IMG/VR virus record: IMGVR_UViG_3300025085_000061 | Coordinates: 1 to 40,834 of that record | Source: a virus | Reading direction: 5' to 3' (one strand) | Length of the DNA: 40,834 nt | In this document: positions 539-12,401 of the stretch, piece after piece | How the letters are laid out: every line of letters begins with the position of its first letter | Numbering within the stretch: position 1 is the stretch's first letter | Translations under genes and position numbers: made by a program | The notes under the pieces: model-generated | What the model was told of the DNA's origin: nothing | Databases searched by the model: none | Seen by the model: the letters and a program-made list of their open reading frames with translations, nothing else

Positions 539-739
539 ATGTACAACGACACAAAATATAATGCAGAAGTAGAAGCTGCAAAAGAGAAAAAATGCCAATG
601 CGGAAAGAACTTATTAACTTGTGAATGCAAGTCAAAAGACGAAGCTTTCTTTGATGCTTGGACTAAAAGTTTAGAGAAAATGGAGCAGCCAAAAGCTTGT
701 TCTGTTAACAACCCAGATTGTGAAAACTGCGGAAGTTAG
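539..739 (+). CDS. Small Cys-rich protein, 66 aa, unknown
   Basis: Not recognised. Seven cysteines are grouped as C-x-C (CQC), C-x-C (CEC) and a C-terminal set ending DCENCGS, which suggests metal binding rather than disulfides in a cytoplasmic product. The middle is an amphipathic charged helix (residues about 33-48). There is no signal peptide. It sits alone between two promoters, each with the identical 11-mer TATCTTTGCAT, so it is probably a monocistronic, well-transcribed gene. A zinc-binding regulator or host-takeover protein is plausible but unsupported. Confidence 0.6.
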   Translation: MYNDTKYNAEVEAAKEKKCQCGKNLLTCECKSKDEAFFDAWTKSLEKMEQPKACSVNNPDCENCGS

Positions 740-749
740 AAAAATTATG

Positions 750-757
750 TATCTTTG
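750..757 (+). promoter_or_regulatory. Bacteroidota-type promoter driving the 763-1023 RNA
   Basis: TATCTTTG (750-757), again continuing CAT, is identical over 11 bases to the element at 510-520. Transcription would start near 762, just before the first hairpin of the structured noncoding region. I see no convincing -33 TTTG box at normal spacing. Confidence 0.65.
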
Positions 758-762
758 CATAA

Positions 763-1023
763 TTAGAAGCACACGTTACAGTGTATCACCCTTGAGGGCC
801 GAGAGGTAAGTAGAGGGTCAGACGTTGGATTGTAGATCCTAAATAAGGATTAGAGTTTTCTCCAATAGCTTCGGAAAGAGAGGATATAGCCCCTAGGTTG
901 GATACATGTCACATAAGTAGGTGTGGTGAATTAACACTGATTTTAGTATCCATGGGTCTCCGGTAGTGCCGGAAGAACTACTAGCATGGTAAAATTCCAA
1001 TTGAAATAGGTGTCTCAAGGGGG
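763..1023 (+). ncRNA. Candidate structured noncoding RNA, about 260 nt
   Basis: This long gap between promoter and SET gene holds no ORF but many matching helices. CCCTTGAG (789-796) pairs perfectly with CTCAAGGG (1014-1021) and closes the whole domain. GCC-GAGA-GGU (798-807) is a stem with a GNRA-type tetraloop. TAG/GGG (811-817, one bulged A) pairs with CCCCTA (890-895) and encloses TTGGA/TCCAA (825-829/861-865), which encloses ATCCT/AGGAT (836-840/846-850). TGGATAC/GTATCCA (899-905/946-952) forms another arm, and CCGG/CCGG (960-963/969-972) the last. A 5' hairpin ACAC/GTGT (771-784) precedes the domain. It matches no RNA class I can name. It could act as a free RNA or as the 5' leader of the gene at 1039. 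Confidence 0.6.
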
Positions 1024-1038
1024 AAACTATATCCATAT

Positions 1039-1437: not shown

Positions 1438-1713
1438 ATGGCAAAGGAATTAACATTTCAACCCTTCGGAGCGTGGATCATTGTACCACGTCCAGATGCA
1501 AAAAAGACAGAATCAGGAATCATCCTTGATGACGCAACTGCAAAAGCATTACAAACAAACATAGTAGAAGTATTGGCGGTAGGCCCGCAAGTTACGCAAA
1601 CTAAGGTAGGAGATACTATTATGGTAGACCCTAACACAGAGGCTATGCTTATTCATATAGAAGATAGGCCTTACTTGTTTGTAAATGAGTTTCAGGTATT
1701 AGGTAAATTCTAA
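1438..1713 (+). CDS. GroES-like co-chaperonin
   Basis: The 91-aa product has GroES length and order. An N-terminal strand (FQPFGAWIIVPRPD) aligns with the 'PLxDRVxVxRxE' start. KKTESGIIL (residues about 22-30) is at the mobile-loop position. VEVLAVGP (about 42-49) and VGDTIMVD (about 57-64) match the conserved GxVxAVGxG and VGDxVxF blocks. The end (FVNEFQVLGKF) matches the 'ESDILAxxE' strand. Phage co-chaperonins such as T4 gp31 pair with host GroEL to fold the capsid protein; that role here is inferred from family knowledge. No GroEL is in the window. It is the first gene of a tightly overlapping run through 5803. Confidence 0.85.
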   Translation: MAKELTFQPFGAWIIVPRPDAKKTESGIILDDATAKALQTNIVEVLAVGPQVTQTKVGDTIMVDPNTEAMLIHIEDRPYLFVNEFQVLGKF

Positions 1714-3584: not shown

Positions 3585-3863
3585 ATGGATTTTTTAGATG
3601 ACTTAGAAGCATACAATAGCTCAATGGACAACGCATATAACTTTATAACTAAGAAGATAACTCTTGATGATATATATGAAGCCGCAGAAAATGAGGGAGA
3701 ACTAATGGAATTTTATTTACCATTTGATCCTATAGAAGGAGACGGAAGAGATGAAGCTACACTAGAATTATTAATATCACATTTTATAGAAATAGAAGAA
3801 TACGAGAAATGTCAGGAGTTAGTAAACATAAAGAGGAAGTTTTTAGAGGCACCAAGGGATTAG
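3585..3863 (+). CDS. Hypothetical acidic protein, 92 aa
   Basis: Not recognised. It is very acidic (DFLDDLEAYNSS, EAAENEGELMEFYLP, HFIEIEEYEKC) with a hydrophobic helix near the C-terminus, but no TM segment. It overlaps the terminase start by 55 nt in another frame, consistent with coupled expression. Acidic proteins next to terminase can be partners of basic packaging proteins; nothing stronger supports that here. Confidence 0.55.
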   Translation: MDFLDDLEAYNSSMDNAYNFITKKITLDDIYEAAENEGELMEFYLPFDPIEGDGRDEATLELLISHFIEIEEYEKCQELVNIKRKFLEAPRD

Positions 3864-5803
3864 CTCCTGCGGCTACGTTATATTTAGAGAATGGCTACTA
3901 CACGAATGCCTTACCCGGTACAAAAGCATATTATGACTACTGGGATGAAGAAAGAAAGCGTTGTGTGTACGGATTTACTCATAATGATATTACAATAACA
4001 GGTAATCATTACTTTTATCTTAATTATTGTCCCATTGACAGGTCTGTTGATGAGGAATTACCAGATGGTTCTACTATAGCTCGTAGAGAGCGTACATTTC
4101 CTGCGTTTTATGACGGAGATTGGAGATACTTTACTGCAATTGATAATTGTAGGAAAACAAACAAGCATATGACTGTTCTTAAGTCACGTCGTAAAGGATA
4201 TTCTTATAAAGCAGCCGCAATGCTTGCTAGAAACTACTTTCATATAAGAAATAGTAAGAATTATGTATTTGCAGGACAAAAAGAATACTTAATTGGGGAT
4301 GGTTTACTATCTAAGGCTTGGGAGATCCTTTCTTTTGTGGATGATAACACAGCATGGACGCAACCTAGACTTACAGACAGAGAAATGAATAAAATGTCTG
4401 GATATAGGAAGAATGTAAACGGAGCACTAGTACAATTAGGAATGAAATCCCAAATAATGGGAGTATCACTAAAAGATGACCCAGATAAAGTAAGGGGTAA
4501 GGCAGGAGAGCTTATATTCTTTGAAGAAGCAGGTTCATTTCCAGGATTATTAAAAGCATGGGAAGTTGCAATGCCTACAATGCGTCAAGGTAATAAAACA
4601 CTAGGAACAATGGTAGCTTTTGGTACAGGTGGTACAAAAGGTGCAGATTTTTCAGGTATGGAAGAGTTATTTTACAATCCAGACGCATATGATTGCCTAT
4701 CTTTTGAAAATGTATGGGATGATGGAGCTAGAGGTACTACATGTGGCCATTTTGTACCTATATACGAGAACTTAGAAGGATTTATAGACGATGATGGTAA
4801 TTCTAACGCACAATTAGCTATAGAATTTGAAGAAGGCAACAGAAATAAGAAAAAAGGTACGAATGACCCTAAAGCATATGATCAATATATAGCGGAACAC
4901 CCAATGTGCCCAGCTGAAGCTACATTACAAGTGTCAGGTAATCTATTTGACATAGGATCACTACAAGAACAGTATAATAAGGTAAAAGCTAACAAGTTAC
5001 ACACTATTGGTACAGCAGGTAGGCTTTATTATGGTAAGAATAATCTTATAAAGTTTGAACCAGACGGAGATGCTAGGCCTATTCTAAGGTATCCTCATCG
5101 TAAGGAAGATAATCTTGAAGGAGCCATTGTTCTTTATGAAGGCCCTTACAAAAATCGGGAGGGACAAACTCCGCATAACCTATATGTAATTTGCCATGAC
5201 CCGTATGGACAAAACCAATCAGCAGACTCCAGCTCTTTGGGTGCTGCGTATGTGATAAAGAGAGTAAATAATATATCAAAACCTGATGATTTAATTGTTG
5301 CTAGTTATGTAGGTAGGCCACACACTCAAGACGAATATAACAAAAATCTATTTATGTTAGCTGATTATTTTAATGCTAAGATAGGATTTGAGAATGATAG
5401 GGGTGCTGTAATACAATATGCAAAGCAGCATAGGAAGTTACATAAGCTTCAAGAAGAATTTGAGATGTTAGACAAGAAAGACTTAAGATCTAAGACGGTA
5501 AAACGTCAATATGGTATGCATACAACAGAGGCTAGGAAAAGACAGGGAGAGTTATACATACGAGATTGGTTAAGTGCAGTAAGATCTGTAGAAGAGGATG
5601 GAAAGACTATACTAAACCTACATAAAATTTATGACCTTGCGCTTTTGCAAGAACTTATAAAGTTTAATACTAAAGGTAACTTTGACCGCGTTATGGCACT
5701 AATGATTGGTATGTATCATACTAGAGAATTGTACAATGCAGAGGTTAAAGAGATATTAGAAGATAATGCAAGTAATGATTGGTTTGATCAGAACTATCAT
5801 TAA
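3809..5803 (+). CDS. terL: Large terminase subunit (packaging ATPase and nuclease)
   Basis: The 664-aa product carries the two terminase domains. The ATPase part has a non-classical Walker A, LKSRRKGYSYK (about residues 122-132). Walker B is ELIFFEEAG (about 234-242), followed by the coupling segment VAFGTGG. The C-terminal RNase H-like nuclease has acidic positions in VICHDPYG (about 459-466), IGFENDRG (about 523-530) and NFDRVMALMIG (about 622-632). Length is typical of crAss-like TerL. It translocates DNA into the prohead through the portal and cuts the concatemer. The chosen ATG at 3809 overlaps the upstream gene; the conserved part begins soon after, at about residue 15. Confidence 0.9.
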   Translation: MSGVSKHKEEVFRGTKGLAPAATLYLENGYYTNALPGTKAYYDYWDEERKRCVYGFTHNDITITGNHYFYLNYCPIDRSVDEELPDGSTIARRERTFPAFYDGDWRYFTAIDNCRKTNKHMTVLKSRRKGYSYKAAAMLARNYFHIRNSKNYVFAGQKEYLIGDGLLSKAWEILSFVDDNTAWTQPRLTDREMNKMSGYRKNVNGALVQLGMKSQIMGVSLKDDPDKVRGKAGELIFFEEAGSFPGLLKAWEVAMPTMRQGNKTLGTMVAFGTGGTKGADFSGMEELFYNPDAYDCLSFENVWDDGARGTTCGHFVPIYENLEGFIDDDGNSNAQLAIEFEEGNRNKKKGTNDPKAYDQYIAEHPMCPAEATLQVSGNLFDIGSLQEQYNKVKANKLHTIGTAGRLYYGKNNLIKFEPDGDARPILRYPHRKEDNLEGAIVLYEGPYKNREGQTPHNLYVICHDPYGQNQSADSSSLGAAYVIKRVNNISKPDDLIVASYVGRPHTQDEYNKNLFMLADYFNAKIGFENDRGAVIQYAKQHRKLHKLQEEFEMLDKKDLRSKTVKRQYGMHTTEARKRQGELYIRDWLSAVRSVEEDGKTILNLHKIYDLALLQELIKFNTKGNFDRVMALMIGMYHTRELYNAEVKEILEDNASNDWFDQNYH

Positions 5804-5833
5804 TGCTATATATATAAAGAAAGCTTAAAAATA

Positions 5834-5858
5834 TATACACATAGTATAAATGTGTGTA
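5834..5858 (+). promoter_or_regulatory. Inverted repeat just upstream of the portal promoter
   Basis: A 9-bp inverted repeat, 5834-5842 with 5850-5858 (core ACACAT...ATGTGT, one G-U), encloses a 7-base loop. It ends 8 bases before the -7 element at 5867 and covers the -33 region. It could be an operator, or a weak terminator ending the terminase transcript, although no U-tract follows directly. Confidence 0.45.
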
Positions 5859-5866
5859 AAAAACAT

Positions 5867-5874
5867 TAATTTTG
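5867..5874 (+). promoter_or_regulatory. Promoter of the portal gene, near-leaderless
   Basis: TAATTTTG (5867-5874) matches TAnnTTTG. The expected transcription start is around 5879-5881, essentially at the portal ATG (5881), so the mRNA would be leaderless or nearly so. No clear -33 TTTG is seen at 19-21 bases. Confidence 0.55.
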
Positions 5875-5880
5875 TAACAT

Positions 5881-8151
5881 ATGTATCTAGGGGGAGACAA
5901 AATACCGCAGCAAAAGCTGCCTTTATCAAAGAAAAATAAAAAGTGGAGAGAAAGCTGCTTAGAAGCTTTTATCGACTTATCTAATCAAGGAGTCAACCAG
6001 AGAAAGGATGACCTTAAAAGATTATATGACTATTATAACGGTGTAATTTTAGAGGATGACTATCGTTACGTGACTCACCCGTATGGGAAGAGTCGTAATA
6101 ATTTCCCCTCTAAAATGCGTAACTATCCTATTATCAAGCCTATAATTGATCTTCTTCTAGGTGAAAAGTCAAAACGCCCTCTGAATTACACCGTTACAGT
6201 ACAGAATGGAGATGCTGTAAGTGAAAAAGAAAAAGCTAAACAGCAAGTTATATTTCAAAACCTTCAACAAAGGTTTATACAAATGATGGCTAAAACAAAT
6301 CCAGAGCTTGTAGAAAATATAGAAACTCCAGAGGACATTCCATTACCAAAAGACGTAGCAGCACAGTTTGATAATAGTTATGTAGATAACAGAGCTATTA
6401 AAGGGCAGCATGCTTTGACTTATATAATGCAATCTGAAGAAGTATACGAAAAATTACAAAAAGGTTGGTTTCATTTCTTAATATCTGGAGAAGTATATAC
6501 TCACAGAGGAGTTAGAAGTAAAGAACCTTTTTATGAGATACTTAATCCTATTGATGTAGATTATGATAAAGATCCAGACATTGAGTTTGTAGAAGATGGC
6601 GATTGGGCTTTAGTTAGAAAATATGTACATGCTTCTACAGTTGTAGATCATTTTTATGATTTTTTAAATGACGAAGAGGTACTATCTTTAGAAGAACCTA
6701 GACACTCTGATCCAGAATCTTATCTATTATACAGACAAGCTAGATCAGGGGCAGATTCAAATGTTCAAAGAAACAGACTTATTGAAGTATGTACTGTATA
6801 TTGGAAATCTAGAAAAAGAATTGGCTTTTTAGAATACATGGACCAAGAAACTGGTGCTATGGAGGAAATGGAAGTTAATGAAGGATTTAAAATGCCTGCA
6901 GAATTAAAAGAACTAGGAGCTAAGGTTACATACCTTTGGGTAAATGAAGTATGGGAAGGTACTAGAATTGATGGTAGATTATATGTCAACATCAATCCTG
7001 TAGCTAATCAAAGATTATCATTAGATAACCCATCTGCTTGTAAACTTCCTATTAATGGTAGAAAATATTCAGATATAAACTCTGATAACATATCTTTAGT
7101 ATCATTAGGTATACCTTATCAGTTAAATTACAATATTTACAAATATAGATTAGAATTAGCTATTGCTAGATCAAAAGATATTATTGCACAGTTTGATATT
7201 AACATGATTCCAAAGAAATGGGACATGGACAAGTTTATGTATTACGTTGAAGGTACGGGTATTGCTTGGGTGGATTACAACAAAGAAGGAATACAATTGA
7301 ACCCACAGCATCAATCCGTACTGGATATGTCTATTAAGACTATTGGACAGTATATACAATTATTAGAGTCAATACTAAATGAATGGGAAAAACTTTCAGG
7401 AGTTAGTAGACAAAGACAGGGTACAATTGGGGCATACGAAGGTAAAGCTAGTTCACAACAAGCTATTGTACAATCTTCACATATTACAGAAGATTTATTT
7501 AGAAAGTTTGCAAGATTAGAACAAAGAGATTTACAAGCAATGTTAGATTACTCTAAAGAAGCTTGGCTTACTGGTAAAAAAGGAATGTTTGTAATGCCAG
7601 ACGGTACTACAGACTTTTTAGACCTTGATACTTTACAACATATGGAATCTGAATACGGAATATTTGTATCAGACTCTGGTAAAGATCAACAAAGGTTAGA
7701 TCAGATAAAAGGTCTTACACAAGCAATGGTTCAAAATGGAACTAAAGCTTCTACAGTAGCTGACATGATGGATGCAGAAAGCTTCCCTCAAATTAAAGCT
7801 AAATTAAAAGCAGCAGAGAAAGCGGCTGAAGAATTAGAAGCAGCTCAGCAGCAAGCACAACAACAAGCTCAGCAACAACAGATGCAAATGGAGCAAAATA
7901 AATTAGAGCAGACAAAAATTGAATCTGAGAAAGATAGACAGAAAGATATTGAGATTGCCTTAATAAATGCTGAAGCTAAGCAAAATCCAGAACTAGATGG
8001 ATTTAATATGCAGAAACTTATGCAAGATTTTGAATTAAAACAGCAAGAGTTAGCTATTAGGGAAAAAGAAGTAATGGATAAGTCACAGATAGCACAAGAT
8101 AAAAATAACATAGCAAGAGAGGGACAAAATGCTAAACAATCAGACTCGTAG
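5881..8151 (+). CDS. Portal protein
   Basis: The 756-aa length, position directly after terminase, and conserved-looking core (PIIDLLLGEKSKRP, GEVYTHRGVRSKEPF, NPIDVDYDKDPDIEF, WEKLSGVSRQRQGTIG) identify the dodecameric portal that forms the DNA gate and head-tail vertex in crAss-like phages. The N-terminal third forms the wing. The long helix LEQRDLQAMLDYSKEAW (about 550-566) fits the stem-crown region. The C-terminus (about 640-756) is a Gln-rich coiled coil that would project into the head as a barrel. It has its own promoter, and its stop overlaps the next gene by 23 nt. Identification combines order, size and recollection of the family. Confidence 0.85.
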   Translation: MYLGGDKIPQQKLPLSKKNKKWRESCLEAFIDLSNQGVNQRKDDLKRLYDYYNGVILEDDYRYVTHPYGKSRNNFPSKMRNYPIIKPIIDLLLGEKSKRPLNYTVTVQNGDAVSEKEKAKQQVIFQNLQQRFIQMMAKTNPELVENIETPEDIPLPKDVAAQFDNSYVDNRAIKGQHALTYIMQSEEVYEKLQKGWFHFLISGEVYTHRGVRSKEPFYEILNPIDVDYDKDPDIEFVEDGDWALVRKYVHASTVVDHFYDFLNDEEVLSLEEPRHSDPESYLLYRQARSGADSNVQRNRLIEVCTVYWKSRKRIGFLEYMDQETGAMEEMEVNEGFKMPAELKELGAKVTYLWVNEVWEGTRIDGRLYVNINPVANQRLSLDNPSACKLPINGRKYSDINSDNISLVSLGIPYQLNYNIYKYRLELAIARSKDIIAQFDINMIPKKWDMDKFMYYVEGTGIAWVDYNKEGIQLNPQHQSVLDMSIKTIGQYIQLLESILNEWEKLSGVSRQRQGTIGAYEGKASSQQAIVQSSHITEDLFRKFARLEQRDLQAMLDYSKEAWLTGKKGMFVMPDGTTDFLDLDTLQHMESEYGIFVSDSGKDQQRLDQIKGLTQAMVQNGTKASTVADMMDAESFPQIKAKLKAAEKAAEELEAAQQQAQQQAQQQQMQMEQNKLEQTKIESEKDRQKDIEIALINAEAKQNPELDGFNMQKLMQDFELKQQELAIREKEVMDKSQIAQDKNNIAREGQNAKQSDS

Positions 8152-9715
8152 ACAAATACTAAGCGAAGCTAGACAAACTGGTTTCCAAGGTAGTGTATTA
8201 GACTTGTTTCAATTAGCGGAACAAGGAGCTGATGTATCTGGTATGTTACAATCTGAGGCGCAGGCTAAACAGCAACAGCAGCAAATGCAAGTTGCACAAA
8301 CAGCTAAAGAGCAAGAGGTAGGACTAAGAGAAGAACACGCGCGCGGGAACACTGGTGCATCTATGGCATTTCCTAATGTAGCTCCTAACCAAGCATTTAA
8401 TACAGAAGGCATGAAAGTGCCTATCAATATATCAAAGGTAGATGAACAAGGACATCTAGTTCAATCTTTTAATAACGTACCACCTGGTATTAAGAATTTA
8501 CCTACAGGACCAAAGCGGGGTACAGTTATAGAAACGCCTGCTTATAAAAATGGTGGATATAAAGGATACAAGCAAAAGTATCAGAATGCAGGGTTTAAAT
8601 TACCTCCACTTGGTAGTACTAATCTTGATGTAAGAGCTTTAATGAATCAGGAACTAAACAATCAAAATACTTCTTTAGATACGAACCCAGCAACTGCTGT
8701 GCAGCAAAAGAATGTAGTTACTGAAAATCTTAATACTCAGAATAAAAAGCTTTATGATCAAACAATATCTAATATAAATACTAAAAAGGCAAATAACGAA
8801 CAGTTAAATGCTTCTGAAATGGCAGTTATTCAGGCCGGTCCAAATGCACAATTTGATACTAAGAATACAATAAAGAAAGTAACAGATATGCAAACTGCAT
8901 CTCTTCCTGAAAATCAAGGTGAGTTTAGAGATGTGGTTAAAGATAATATGAGAGACGTAATGGCTAACTCTTTTTTAGCTAGTCAAATAGCTTCAGGATA
9001 TGGTGGAGATTACATAAATCAATCTCTTCAAGATCAAAACAACTATGAAGAAAAATTTGATAATCTTCTTAGTGGTACAGGGCAAAAAACTATGCAACAA
9101 GTTGCTTTATCTACTATGGGTGTTGGATCAAGTGCTTCACTTGCAAGAAATCCTGCTTCTACTAATTTTGCAAAAAGAGCTCTTGCTTATCCAACAGATA
9201 AAACCGCTAAAGGTATTAATACGTTACTAACTACTCCTGGGGTTAAAGGTAAACTTGGAACAGGTTTAAATACTTTATATAATTATGGTTATATAAGTGG
9301 ACTGCCTAAAGTTTTGAGTAGTACTGCTGAAGCAGGAGTAGGATATTCAGCCGGAGAAAAATCAGGACAAGAGGCCGGTTTAAAGATAGGAGTAAATGCT
9401 TTAAACTATATTCCTGCTGTTAAAGGGTTTAATACCGCTAATAAATATATACAACCTGTTGCACAAAATTATAATAAAATTAAAACAGTAGCAAAAGCAG
9501 GGTATGATCTTTATAAAGGTAATCCTGAAGATGCTGCGATACGAATGACAGAGCTTGTTGGAGGAGGAAATAGTAAATATTATAAAAAGTATCTTAGAAA
9601 ATTACTGCCTGATGATATTAAATCAGATATTACAAAAAGTACTATAGATGCATTTGTTCCTAAAGTTTATGGAGGCCGGCCTTCTCAAAACTTATTAAAT
9701 TTTGAAGGCAAGTGA
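8129..9715 (+). CDS. Putative virion protein, 528 aa
   Basis: It lies between portal and scaffold-like genes, as a conserved but uncharacterised crAss-phage gene does. The N-terminal 80 residues form a Gln-rich helix (EAQAKQQQQQMQVAQ) like the portal C-terminus. Residues about 137-156 hold a Lys/Tyr/Gly patch (NGGYKGYKQKYQNAG) related to the K-Y-Q-x-G-G motif of other proteins here. The middle (about 160-300) is Asn/Gln/Thr-rich. The C-terminal 200 residues are Ala/Gly-rich with hydrophobic stretches (about 325-450), as in internal virion or ejection proteins that contact membrane. No enzyme domain is visible. A packaged cargo or minor head protein is my inference. Confidence 0.55.
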   Translation: MLNNQTRRQILSEARQTGFQGSVLDLFQLAEQGADVSGMLQSEAQAKQQQQQMQVAQTAKEQEVGLREEHARGNTGASMAFPNVAPNQAFNTEGMKVPINISKVDEQGHLVQSFNNVPPGIKNLPTGPKRGTVIETPAYKNGGYKGYKQKYQNAGFKLPPLGSTNLDVRALMNQELNNQNTSLDTNPATAVQQKNVVTENLNTQNKKLYDQTISNINTKKANNEQLNASEMAVIQAGPNAQFDTKNTIKKVTDMQTASLPENQGEFRDVVKDNMRDVMANSFLASQIASGYGGDYINQSLQDQNNYEEKFDNLLSGTGQKTMQQVALSTMGVGSSASLARNPASTNFAKRALAYPTDKTAKGINTLLTTPGVKGKLGTGLNTLYNYGYISGLPKVLSSTAEAGVGYSAGEKSGQEAGLKIGVNALNYIPAVKGFNTANKYIQPVAQNYNKIKTVAKAGYDLYKGNPEDAAIRMTELVGGGNSKYYKKYLRKLLPDDIKSDITKSTIDAFVPKVYGGRPSQNLLNFEGK

Positions 9716-9744
9716 TATATAATAAAGGCATAACTAAAAACCAT

Positions 9745-9768
9745 ATTGCATGTGTAACAACTTGCAAT
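9745..9768 (+). promoter_or_regulatory. Inverted repeat upstream of the scaffold-like gene promoter
   Basis: ATTGCA (9745-9750) pairs with TGCAAT (9763-9768) across a 12-base loop and is followed by TTTAATTATTTTT. It could terminate the upstream transcript or serve as an operator. It ends only 6 bases before the -7 element at 9775, repeating the layout seen before the portal gene. Confidence 0.4.
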
Positions 9769-9774
9769 TTTAAT

Positions 9775-9782
9775 TATTTTTG
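9775..9782 (+). promoter_or_regulatory. Promoter before the scaffold-like gene
   Basis: TATTTTTG (9775-9782) matches TAnnTTTG. A start near 9787 leaves about 17 nt before the ATG at 9805. TGTG at 9751-9754 lies roughly at -33 but is a weak match. Confidence 0.5.
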
Positions 9783-9804
9783 TAAAAACTAAATTTATAT
9801 AGAT

Positions 9805-10902
9805 ATGACACCAGATGAAGAAAACATTGGATTAGACGACATTTCGTTTGACGATGTATTAGACGGAGGATCTACAGAAACGCCAAGTGATTTGGCAATA
9901 GATACTCCAGAAGCAGAAGCTGATGAGCTTGATGCGGATGCAGAAGAATTACAAGAAGAAGAATCTAACGAAGAAGAAGTTGAAGATGATGATACTGAAG
10001 AAGAGTTAGAGGAAGAAGAAGAAGATGATGATGATGATGAGGAAGTAGAAAGAGAAGGTTCTACTGTAGTATCAGAGATTCTAGAAAAACTAGGATATGA
10101 GACTGAAGAAGAGTACGATGATACAACAGAAGGACTATTAGCTATGACTCAAGACGTAGGAAAACAAATGGCAGAAGATCAATTAGATGGCCTGTTTGAA
10201 AACTTTCCTTTAGTTAAAGATCATTTAGAATACGTTCTTAACGGAGGAGACTCTCAAGATTTTATGCAAGCATACGATCCTAACCTAGATTATAGTAGGA
10301 TAGAGTTAGACGAAGAAGATTCTAGAAGTCAGAAAGGAATACTATCTGATTACTTCGTAACAAAAGGTCACGATAAAGATTTTATTGATGAATTATTGAC
10401 TGACTATGAAGACACTGGTAAATTATACCAGAAAGCTGAAGCTGCTAGAAAGGCAATGGGTAAGATGCAAGAGCAATCTAGATCTCAGTTAGTTGCTAGA
10501 AAACAAGAAGAAAGGCAACAAGCGCAGGAACAGCAACAAAATTTTTGGAATGGTGTATATGAAACCATTAATGAAACTGATGACTTTTCAGGTATATCAA
10601 TTCCAAAAAGAGAAAAATCAAAGTTTTTTGATTATGTCTCTAAACCTGTGACCAAAGATGGTAGAACACAGCGAGATTTAGATCATTCTGAATCAGAAAT
10701 AGAAACTAAGTTAGCAATTGACTACTTAATGTATAAAGGCTTTGACTTATCTAAGTTTGTAGATAAAAAAGCAAAAACACAAAGTGCTAAATCGCTAAAA
10801 GATAGAATTTCTAGAAATGAAGAAAGAGTTAAAAGCGCACGAAAAGCAACAAGACGCAAGAGTAAGCAAGTAGACTTAGATGATTTAGATCTTAACTTTT
10901 AA
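9805..10902 (+). CDS. Acidic scaffold/assembly-like protein, 365 aa
   Basis: Position immediately before the major capsid gene and composition point to a scaffold or head assembly protein. Residues about 30-85 are an almost pure Asp/Glu tract (for example EEEEEDDDDDEEVE). The middle (about 150-250) is helical and Gln-rich (KMQEQSRSQLVARKQEERQQAQEQQQ). The C-terminal 60 residues are basic (SARKATRRKSKQ), like the capsid-binding tails of scaffolds. No protease triad or other enzyme motif is visible. It has its own promoter. Scaffolding is inferred, not proven; a capsid-associated internal protein is the alternative. Confidence 0.55.
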   Translation: MTPDEENIGLDDISFDDVLDGGSTETPSDLAIDTPEAEADELDADAEELQEEESNEEEVEDDDTEEELEEEEEDDDDDEEVEREGSTVVSEILEKLGYETEEEYDDTTEGLLAMTQDVGKQMAEDQLDGLFENFPLVKDHLEYVLNGGDSQDFMQAYDPNLDYSRIELDEEDSRSQKGILSDYFVTKGHDKDFIDELLTDYEDTGKLYQKAEAARKAMGKMQEQSRSQLVARKQEERQQAQEQQQNFWNGVYETINETDDFSGISIPKREKSKFFDYVSKPVTKDGRTQRDLDHSESEIETKLAIDYLMYKGFDLSKFVDKKAKTQSAKSLKDRISRNEERVKSARKATRRKSKQVDLDDLDLNF

Positions 10903-10958
10903 TAAAAAATGGCAATTTTAAAATGCAACTTAACTTAAATAAATAAAATTAGATAATT

Positions 10959-12401
10959 ATGAGCTTAAACGGAACAAATATAAGCGTTCAAAAAACGTTT
11001 TATAACGATTCACAAATGACAGACATGAATAGTCTGGCAAATGCTCTTTTGTCAAAACCAACTGAACTTTCTCCGATTATCACACACTTGTCTGGTAAGG
11101 ATGATAAGCGTTTTCCATTATCTTTCTTAACAGAAGGAGCTGGTAACGTTCAATCAATCGACAGATTAGAGTATGAATATCGTGTGGCTACTCACAAATT
11201 GAGAACACGTCCAGTTGCTGTGGCAAATGCAGGAGCATCTTTAGGTCAAGGAGGATCAACATTTACGTTGGTATTCCCTGATAAACGATTTATTTTCCCT
11301 TACGTATTAGTAAACTCAAAAGGTGAGCTAGCGCGTATTATGGCAGAGCCTAAGCCTTACGCAGGTGGTTCTGGTTGGGAATATACTTTACAATTAGTAA
11401 ACCCAGCTGCTACAGCGGTTCTTTCAGGAGGATTCAATGCAGGAGATCTTTGGGCGCAATTATATGCACCAGTAGGTGTTGACTTCTCAAGAGGTAACGC
11501 TTCTAACTGGCAAGCACCAGGTAAAGTTCGTAACAAAATCACAACTGTAAGAAAATCTTACCACATGTCAGGTAATGCTAAAGACTTCGTAGCGGAGTTT
11601 ACTTTACCAACTAAAGGTGGATCTTCTACTAAGTTATGGATGGATTACGAAGAGTACCAACACATGCTTGACTTTAAAGAAGAGTGTGAGATGTACTACT
11701 GGTACGGACAGAAAACTTACGACTCTAACGGATCAACTTTCATGAAAGATGAGAATGGCCAACCAGTAATTGTTGGACCAGGTTTATTCGAGCAAATCGT
11801 AAATACTGACACTTACTCAACTATGACTGAGTCTAAGTTGAAAAATATTATTGGTGATTTATTCTATCAAATGACTGACGCTAATCAGAAGCAGATTACT
11901 TTGTATACTGGTACTGGTGGAGCGCGTGAATTTGATGAGGCTCTTAAATCTCACTTTGCAGGTAACACTTTCAAAGTAGGTGGTGAGAACAGATTTATCA
12001 CAGGTTCTGGTCGTAACTTAGGTTTGACTGGATATTTCACAACTTATGAGCACGTAGACGGACACGTAATCAATGTGGTAAAAATTCCACTATTTGATCA
12101 TGGTCCTGTTGCACAAGCTCGTGAGAAGCACCCAGTAACTGGTTACTCTATGGAGTCTTACCGTATGGTATTTGTTGACCAGTCTAACTATGACGGACAA
12201 GCTAACTTGACAATGATCTCAAAGAAAGGTCGCGAGATGATGAGATGGTGTGTTGCTGGTTCTGTTGTACCTAGAGGATTCTCTGGATCAGACGCAAGAG
12301 CATCTGATGTTGATGGTGCAAGTGTACACATGTTGAAGACAGCGGGTATCTGCTTACGTAGATTTGATACTTCTCTGGATATTCAATGTGTAGCTTCCTA
12401 A
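10959..12401 (+). CDS. Major capsid protein (HK97-fold, crAss-like)
   Basis: The 480-aa product matches the crAss-like capsid protein in length. I recognise C-terminal blocks of that family: YRMVFVDQSNYDGQANL, SKKGREMMRWCVAGSVVPRG and DVDGASVHMLKTAGICLRRF. These proteins assemble the icosahedral shell with the HK97 fold. There is no obvious N-terminal scaffold domain, consistent with a separate scaffold gene upstream. Codon choice shifts from neighbours toward C-ending codons (AAC, TAC, TTC, CGT), as expected for the most highly expressed gene. The leader is A/T-rich with no Shine-Dalgarno site. A hairpin terminator follows at 12455-12490, limiting read-through. Confidence 0.9.
   Translation: MSLNGTNISVQKTFYNDSQMTDMNSLANALLSKPTELSPIITHLSGKDDKRFPLSFLTEGAGNVQSIDRLEYEYRVATHKLRTRPVAVANAGASLGQGGSTFTLVFPDKRFIFPYVLVNSKGELARIMAEPKPYAGGSGWEYTLQLVNPAATAVLSGGFNAGDLWAQLYAPVGVDFSRGNASNWQAPGKVRNKITTVRKSYHMSGNAKDFVAEFTLPTKGGSSTKLWMDYEEYQHMLDFKEECEMYYWYGQKTYDSNGSTFMKDENGQPVIVGPGLFEQIVNTDTYSTMTESKLKNIIGDLFYQMTDANQKQITLYTGTGGAREFDEALKSHFAGNTFKVGGENRFITGSGRNLGLTGYFTTYEHVDGHVINVVKIPLFDHGPVAQAREKHPVTGYSMESYRMVFVDQSNYDGQANLTMISKKGREMMRWCVAGSVVPRGFSGSDARASDVDGASVHMLKTAGICLRRFDTSLDIQCVAS

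Follow-up and report, generated by a model that had tools for sequence, protein, structure and literature searches.

The window analysed here, meaning the whole stretch of DNA under study, corresponds to a 40,834-base virus contig in IMG/VR. Its virus is crAss-like, judging by comparison of its terminase, which is 41-42% identical to those of gut crAss-like phages of the Suoliviridae. Its portal and major head proteins match phage families of the same gene block. The features relevant to this study are as follows:

539-739, plus strand: small Cys-rich ORF upstream of the RNA, with its own TATCTTTG at 510-517
750-757, plus strand: promoter-like Bacteroidota-type -7 element, TATCTTTG, directly ahead of the RNA
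763-1034, plus strand: whole structured RNA, two domains, about 270 bases
766-872, plus strand: domain 1, a four-way junction (P1-P4)
873-881, plus strand: purine-rich linker joining the domains, GGAAAGAGA
882-1034, plus strand: domain 2, a three-way junction (P5-P7) with terminal helix P8
1039-1392, plus strand: SET-domain ORF (PF00856, E = 8e-12), starting 4 nt after P8
1405-1412, plus strand: separate promoter element of the GroES gene, TAACTTTG
1438-1713, plus strand: GroES-like co-chaperonin, the first constant gene downstream of the RNA
3809-12401, plus strand: late genes, from terminase large subunit and portal to major head protein

The 5′ end of the RNA is placed from its distance to the promoter and the 3′ end from P8. 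The original prediction described a region devoid of ORFs that starts at a promoter, and both observations hold. No ORF of at least 60 aa occurs between 740 and 1038, and the element at 750-757 has counterparts in relatives: of 79 distinct copies of the RNA, 69 are preceded by TAnnTTTG at a distance of no more than 45 nt. Other copies carry TATCTTTA upstream or directly abut the stop codon of the Cys-rich ORF, with no promoter element in between. Many relatives keep this ORF immediately before the RNA, and searches of Pfam and PHROGs with the window copy returned no match. In the window, a search downstream of the RNA revealed no terminator-like hairpin, and a discrete 3′ end would therefore need processing or read-through.

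The folding energy of the single window sequence is unremarkable (z = -1.8), and therefore the case for a structured RNA rests on comparative evidence. We read the RNA in the sense orientation because it has many G-U pairs (for example 824-866), which would be A-C on the opposite strand. The proposed pairings are listed below:

766-770/868-872, plus strand: P1
771-774/781-784, plus strand: P2
788-792/814-818, plus strand: P3, with a GNRA cap (799-800/805-806)
824-829/861-866, plus strand: P4
836-840/846-850, plus strand: P4a
882-889/1027-1034, plus strand: P8, whose end pairs are weak
893-896/981-984, plus strand: P5
899-905/946-952, plus strand: P6, which bears hairpins P6a and P6b
909-912/921-924, plus strand: P6a
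925-928/935-938, plus strand: P6b
959-961/971-973, plus strand: P7
953-956/1014-1017 (within 953-1017), plus strand: candidate pseudoknot, 71.5% of cells paired

Across 26 sequences, 98.3% of the cells in domain 1 are paired, compared with 88.1% after shuffling and 35-47% in slid controls, and 12 of its 27 pairs have changed on both sides. When gut phage copies are included (42 sequences), pairing stands at 94.2% versus 77.2% shuffled and both-sided changes reach 23 of the 27 pairs, in an alignment that was fitted to the covariance model and leans towards it. In domain 2, 89.6% of cells are paired versus 82.3% shuffled, with both-sided changes at 18 of 36 pairs. Exchanges of TAGG-CCTA for TTGG-CCAA, with exceptions, lend partial support to the pseudoknot, which we regard as suggestive only. 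Structural subtypes were also encountered: P2 is absent from a second subtype of the RNA, and in others the P4 arm is 40-60 nt longer with the junction intact (L361 4942-5115; L368 2-158; L374 2543-2699). These alignments show a two-domain fold that is kept by compensatory mutation, and the RNA is almost certainly a real conserved structure.

Much of the architecture first proposed from the window sequence reappears in this fold. The GNRA hairpin is found as CC-GAGA-GG at 799-806. The 7-bp arm is P6, in which 99.7% of cells are paired in 50 sequences and three pairs have changed on both sides, and the hairpin at about 960-972 is P7, where every pair has done so. What had been read as a three-layer nested arm at 811-895 is really P4 plus P4a, and its 824-866 portion covaries. 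The 8-bp stem (789-796/1014-1021) thought to close the entire structure did not survive comparison. Its pairing is perfect in the window sequence, and across 26 sequences 76.7% of cells are paired versus 75.6% shuffled. Its 5′ strand instead belongs to P3, and its 3′ strand to the likely pseudoknot with 953-956. Homologs had been proposed as the place to look for covariation, and they provide it for the arms at 824-866, 899-952 and 960-972, with the long closing stem as the only exception. P1 and P8, two helices that define the fold, were absent from the earlier reading. The broader claim of an undescribed multibranched structured RNA behind a promoter is borne out by compensatory changes in most helices, seen among about 100 contigs.

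Locus L003 encodes a SET-like protein that is 72% identical to that of the window, and the DNA upstream is a diverged copy of the RNA with compensatory changes. Searches used patterns from the window and L003 copies and then a covariance model of domain 1 (R1, 26 sequences), which scored 90 matches among 98 sources, almost all of these IMG/VR loci. When the search was begun from the terminase instead, the RNA was present in 44 of the 48 relatives selected. The four without a match are L358, which reaches only about 2.7 kb upstream of its terminase, and L367, L377 and L378, which have at least 3.6 kb upstream and no RNA even with filters off. A blastn search of phage records with the window region produced no match, and a scan of bacterial and archaeal genomes with the domain-1 pattern produced none either. 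A 15-base domain-2 pattern yielded 91 taxonomically scattered matches in the bacterial and archaeal scan, where several hundred would be expected in random sequence of 257 Gb. Applying the model to 80 of these loci revealed nothing credible (best E = 0.028).

R1 also recognises copies in the gut phages cr118_1 (Suoliviridae, E = 3e-8) and cr111_1 (Steigviridae, E = 8e-6). Both matches are independent of the model, because R1 was built from environmental copies only. The match in cr128_1 (Steigviridae) is weaker (E = 0.001-0.003). In a control of 627 kb of bacterial DNA the model score rose to 21.7 bits, and a score of about 22 bits alone is thus no proof. We therefore accepted cr128_1 only in conjunction with an adjacent, co-oriented domain-2 match (E = 0.03-0.08) and with blastn links, which run from cr128_1 to crAss001 and cr112_1 at 5e-11 and to cr111_1 at 5e-5. 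The crAss001 copy (MH675552, about 655-985) has mainly part of domain 2 in common, and the model fails to recognise domain 1 there. A further model, R3, was trained on gut copies, and so its matches to gut copies are not independent. The RNA was not detected in p-crAss (MT006214), phi14:2, crAss002, DAC15, Fpv2, the Azobacteroides phage or most other Suoliviridae tested, where diverged copies are possible. Based on these comparisons, the RNA is kept across at least two families of crAss-like phages.

No known RNA family accounts for the locus. With Rfam 15, and with a match defined as a score at or above the gathering threshold of the family, none of the 4227 families searched matched, in agreement with the original reading, which could match the region to no tRNA, tmRNA, RNase P, 6S, cobalamin riboswitch, group I/II intron or ribozyme core, and the window as a whole yielded no match at the curated thresholds. 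Extending the search of 480-1440 up to E = 10 produced chance matches only. A tRNA search of the region found none, again as first proposed, and in the further loci scanned with Rfam nothing falls over the RNA, the only matches being tRNAs in L208. In the open-access literature, we found no earlier account of an RNA like this one from crAss-like phages. The RNA is a new family, and the mechanism behind its function may yet prove to be a known one in modified form.

That phages can carry structured RNAs without a known function is not in itself a new idea. GOLLD and ROOL RNAs, which are about 600-800 nt long and often carried by phages or prophages, likewise stand alone, fold elaborately and have no known function. 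In contrast, the RNA described here is much smaller, lacks an Rfam match, was found in one phage order and heads late genes. The put RNA of phage HK022 also lies directly behind a promoter and heads a phage operon. However, put consists of two simple stem-loops of about 65 nt, whereas the present RNA is about 270 nt with two multi-helix junction domains, and the late genes have a further promoter element downstream. The pRNA of phi29 likewise belongs to a phage, with packaging genes and perhaps a genome end close by, but its fold and size differ, and it accompanies a phi29-type packaging ATPase rather than a large terminase. With 6S RNA there might be control of the host RNA polymerase in common. 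That RNA forms a single long rod with a central bubble, unlike the four-way and three-way junctions predicted here, and again there is no Rfam match.

Genome context provides additional clues. In the environmental loci, the RNA is followed by a variable segment (0 to about 2.5 kb), then by GroES and eventually by the terminase, portal and capsid genes, all on one strand. Wherever the GroES-terminase block was found, the RNA lies upstream of it and points in the same direction, and in 73 of 77 loci a separate TAnnTTTG follows the RNA, ahead of the first labelled gene. Among the loci examined, the SET ORF adjoins the RNA only in the window, in the near-identical contig L002 and in L003 (1657-2007). 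In the window and L003 this ORF begins a few bases after P8 with no promoter in between, and so the RNA would there also be a 5′ leader. In crAss001 the RNA is flanked by gp2 (minus strand) and gp3 (plus strand), in the gap between divergent gene sets; in cr118_1 it likewise occupies such a gap, and in cr128_1 it is first on the late strand. Where records show the early/late strand switch, the RNA is at or beside it. These modules are transcribed in crAss001 as early and late, with the late genes turned on as one module at 30-60 min and a presumed dependence on host RNA polymerase (PMC8375218). An origin or strand-skew explanation was rejected, as in cr118_1 the GC skew changes at a place other than the RNA. 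In DAC15 (MT074136, L320 1-1842), an annotated exact direct terminal repeat of 1842 bp ends in the strand-switch gap, and no copy of the RNA was detected in this gap, which is its site in relatives.

Given this collection of features, our best reading is that of a conserved, discrete RNA of crAss-like phages that acts in trans and binds protein, a function we infer and to which we assign about an even chance. Such an RNA would be transcribed from its own promoter or, in some relatives, made within the Cys-rich or SET transcript and then trimmed. It would fold compactly, bind its protein and work away from its site of synthesis. As a first guess, the partner might be a factor, from the host or the phage, involved in the switch of transcription ahead of late gene expression. 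We count in favour of this reading the covariation far above shuffled and slid controls, the many matches in IMG/VR loci and terminase-selected relatives, the homologues in other families, the place of the crAss001 and cr118_1 copies between divergent gene sets, the RNA's own host-type promoter element and the variable genes and separate promoter element that follow it, and against it the missing terminator-like hairpin, the leader position ahead of SET and the gaps in phage distribution.

The main rival, which we consider doubtful, is a cis-acting leader of late transcripts, for example a put- or EAR-like processive antiterminator that acts on its own polymerase so that a long late operon is read through. 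Where the context is known, the RNA is the first element behind a promoter heading the late genes, and its position before SET, the lack of a following terminator in the window and the activation of the crAss001 late genes as one module, thought to depend on host RNA polymerase (PMC8375218), all fit this possibility. However, 73 of 77 loci have a separate promoter element before the constant late genes, and transcripts from there would lack the RNA. The RNA is also far larger and more complex than put.

A role in DNA packaging or genome-end processing, comparable to that of phi29 pRNA, is improbable. The RNA is located upstream of the terminase, the DAC15 terminal repeat ends in the same strand-switch gap and several contigs break off 100-300 nt before the RNA begins. 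Opposing this, the phages have a large terminase, no Rfam packaging-RNA family matched, DAC15 itself has no detectable copy, and AT-rich flanks and the selection for hallmark genes both confound the bias in contig ends.

Likewise improbable is a cis-regulator of the next gene, such as a riboswitch or a translation control element. In its favour, only 4 nt separate P8 from the SET start codon in the window, and in L003 the start codon also follows P8 closely. Against it, the next gene differs between phages and may be SET, gp3 (in crAss001), another ORF, or GroES with a promoter element of its own. Variable genes occupying as much as about 2.5 kb between the RNA and GroES argue against control of a single adjacent gene. 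Likewise, the variable next gene together with the separate late promoter element argues against a riboswitch and weakens the proposal of a put-like leader.

A Y-RNA-like partner of a phage TROVE (Ro60-like) protein is very unlikely as a general explanation, since such proteins occur in crAss001 (MH675552 96870-98288) and cr111_1 (NC_055880 77241-78038) but the domain is absent from 16 of the 18 records searched, some of them fragments, including cr118_1, cr128_1, the window and nine further RNA-bearing environmental contigs.

The preferred reading of a trans-acting RNA can be extended, tentatively, to a more ambitious one. The RNA might be an old Crassvirales component shared by environmental and gut phages that forms part of the trans-acting core of infection, as a ribonucleoprotein on RNA polymerase, a late switch or a packaging machine. 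If so, its lack of a protein product would explain why it was overlooked. Few viruses of the human gut are as abundant as crAss-like phages, which, to our knowledge, have been studied almost solely through their proteins. An RNA kept by compensatory mutation in at least two families, and placed ahead of late genes, makes a strong candidate for the role of central regulator or cofactor. The phage crAss001 can be cultured on Bacteroides intestinalis. Moreover, strand-specific RNA-seq data from crAss001 infection have been published (PMC8375218). With both resources available, expression of the RNA and its timing can be checked at once.

Lastly, many whole contigs (L080, L083, L116, L031, L033, L054, L066, L158, L171, L060 and L151) end about 100-300 nt upstream of the RNA. 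These ends could be genome termini or, alternatively, places where assembly broke in AT-rich DNA.
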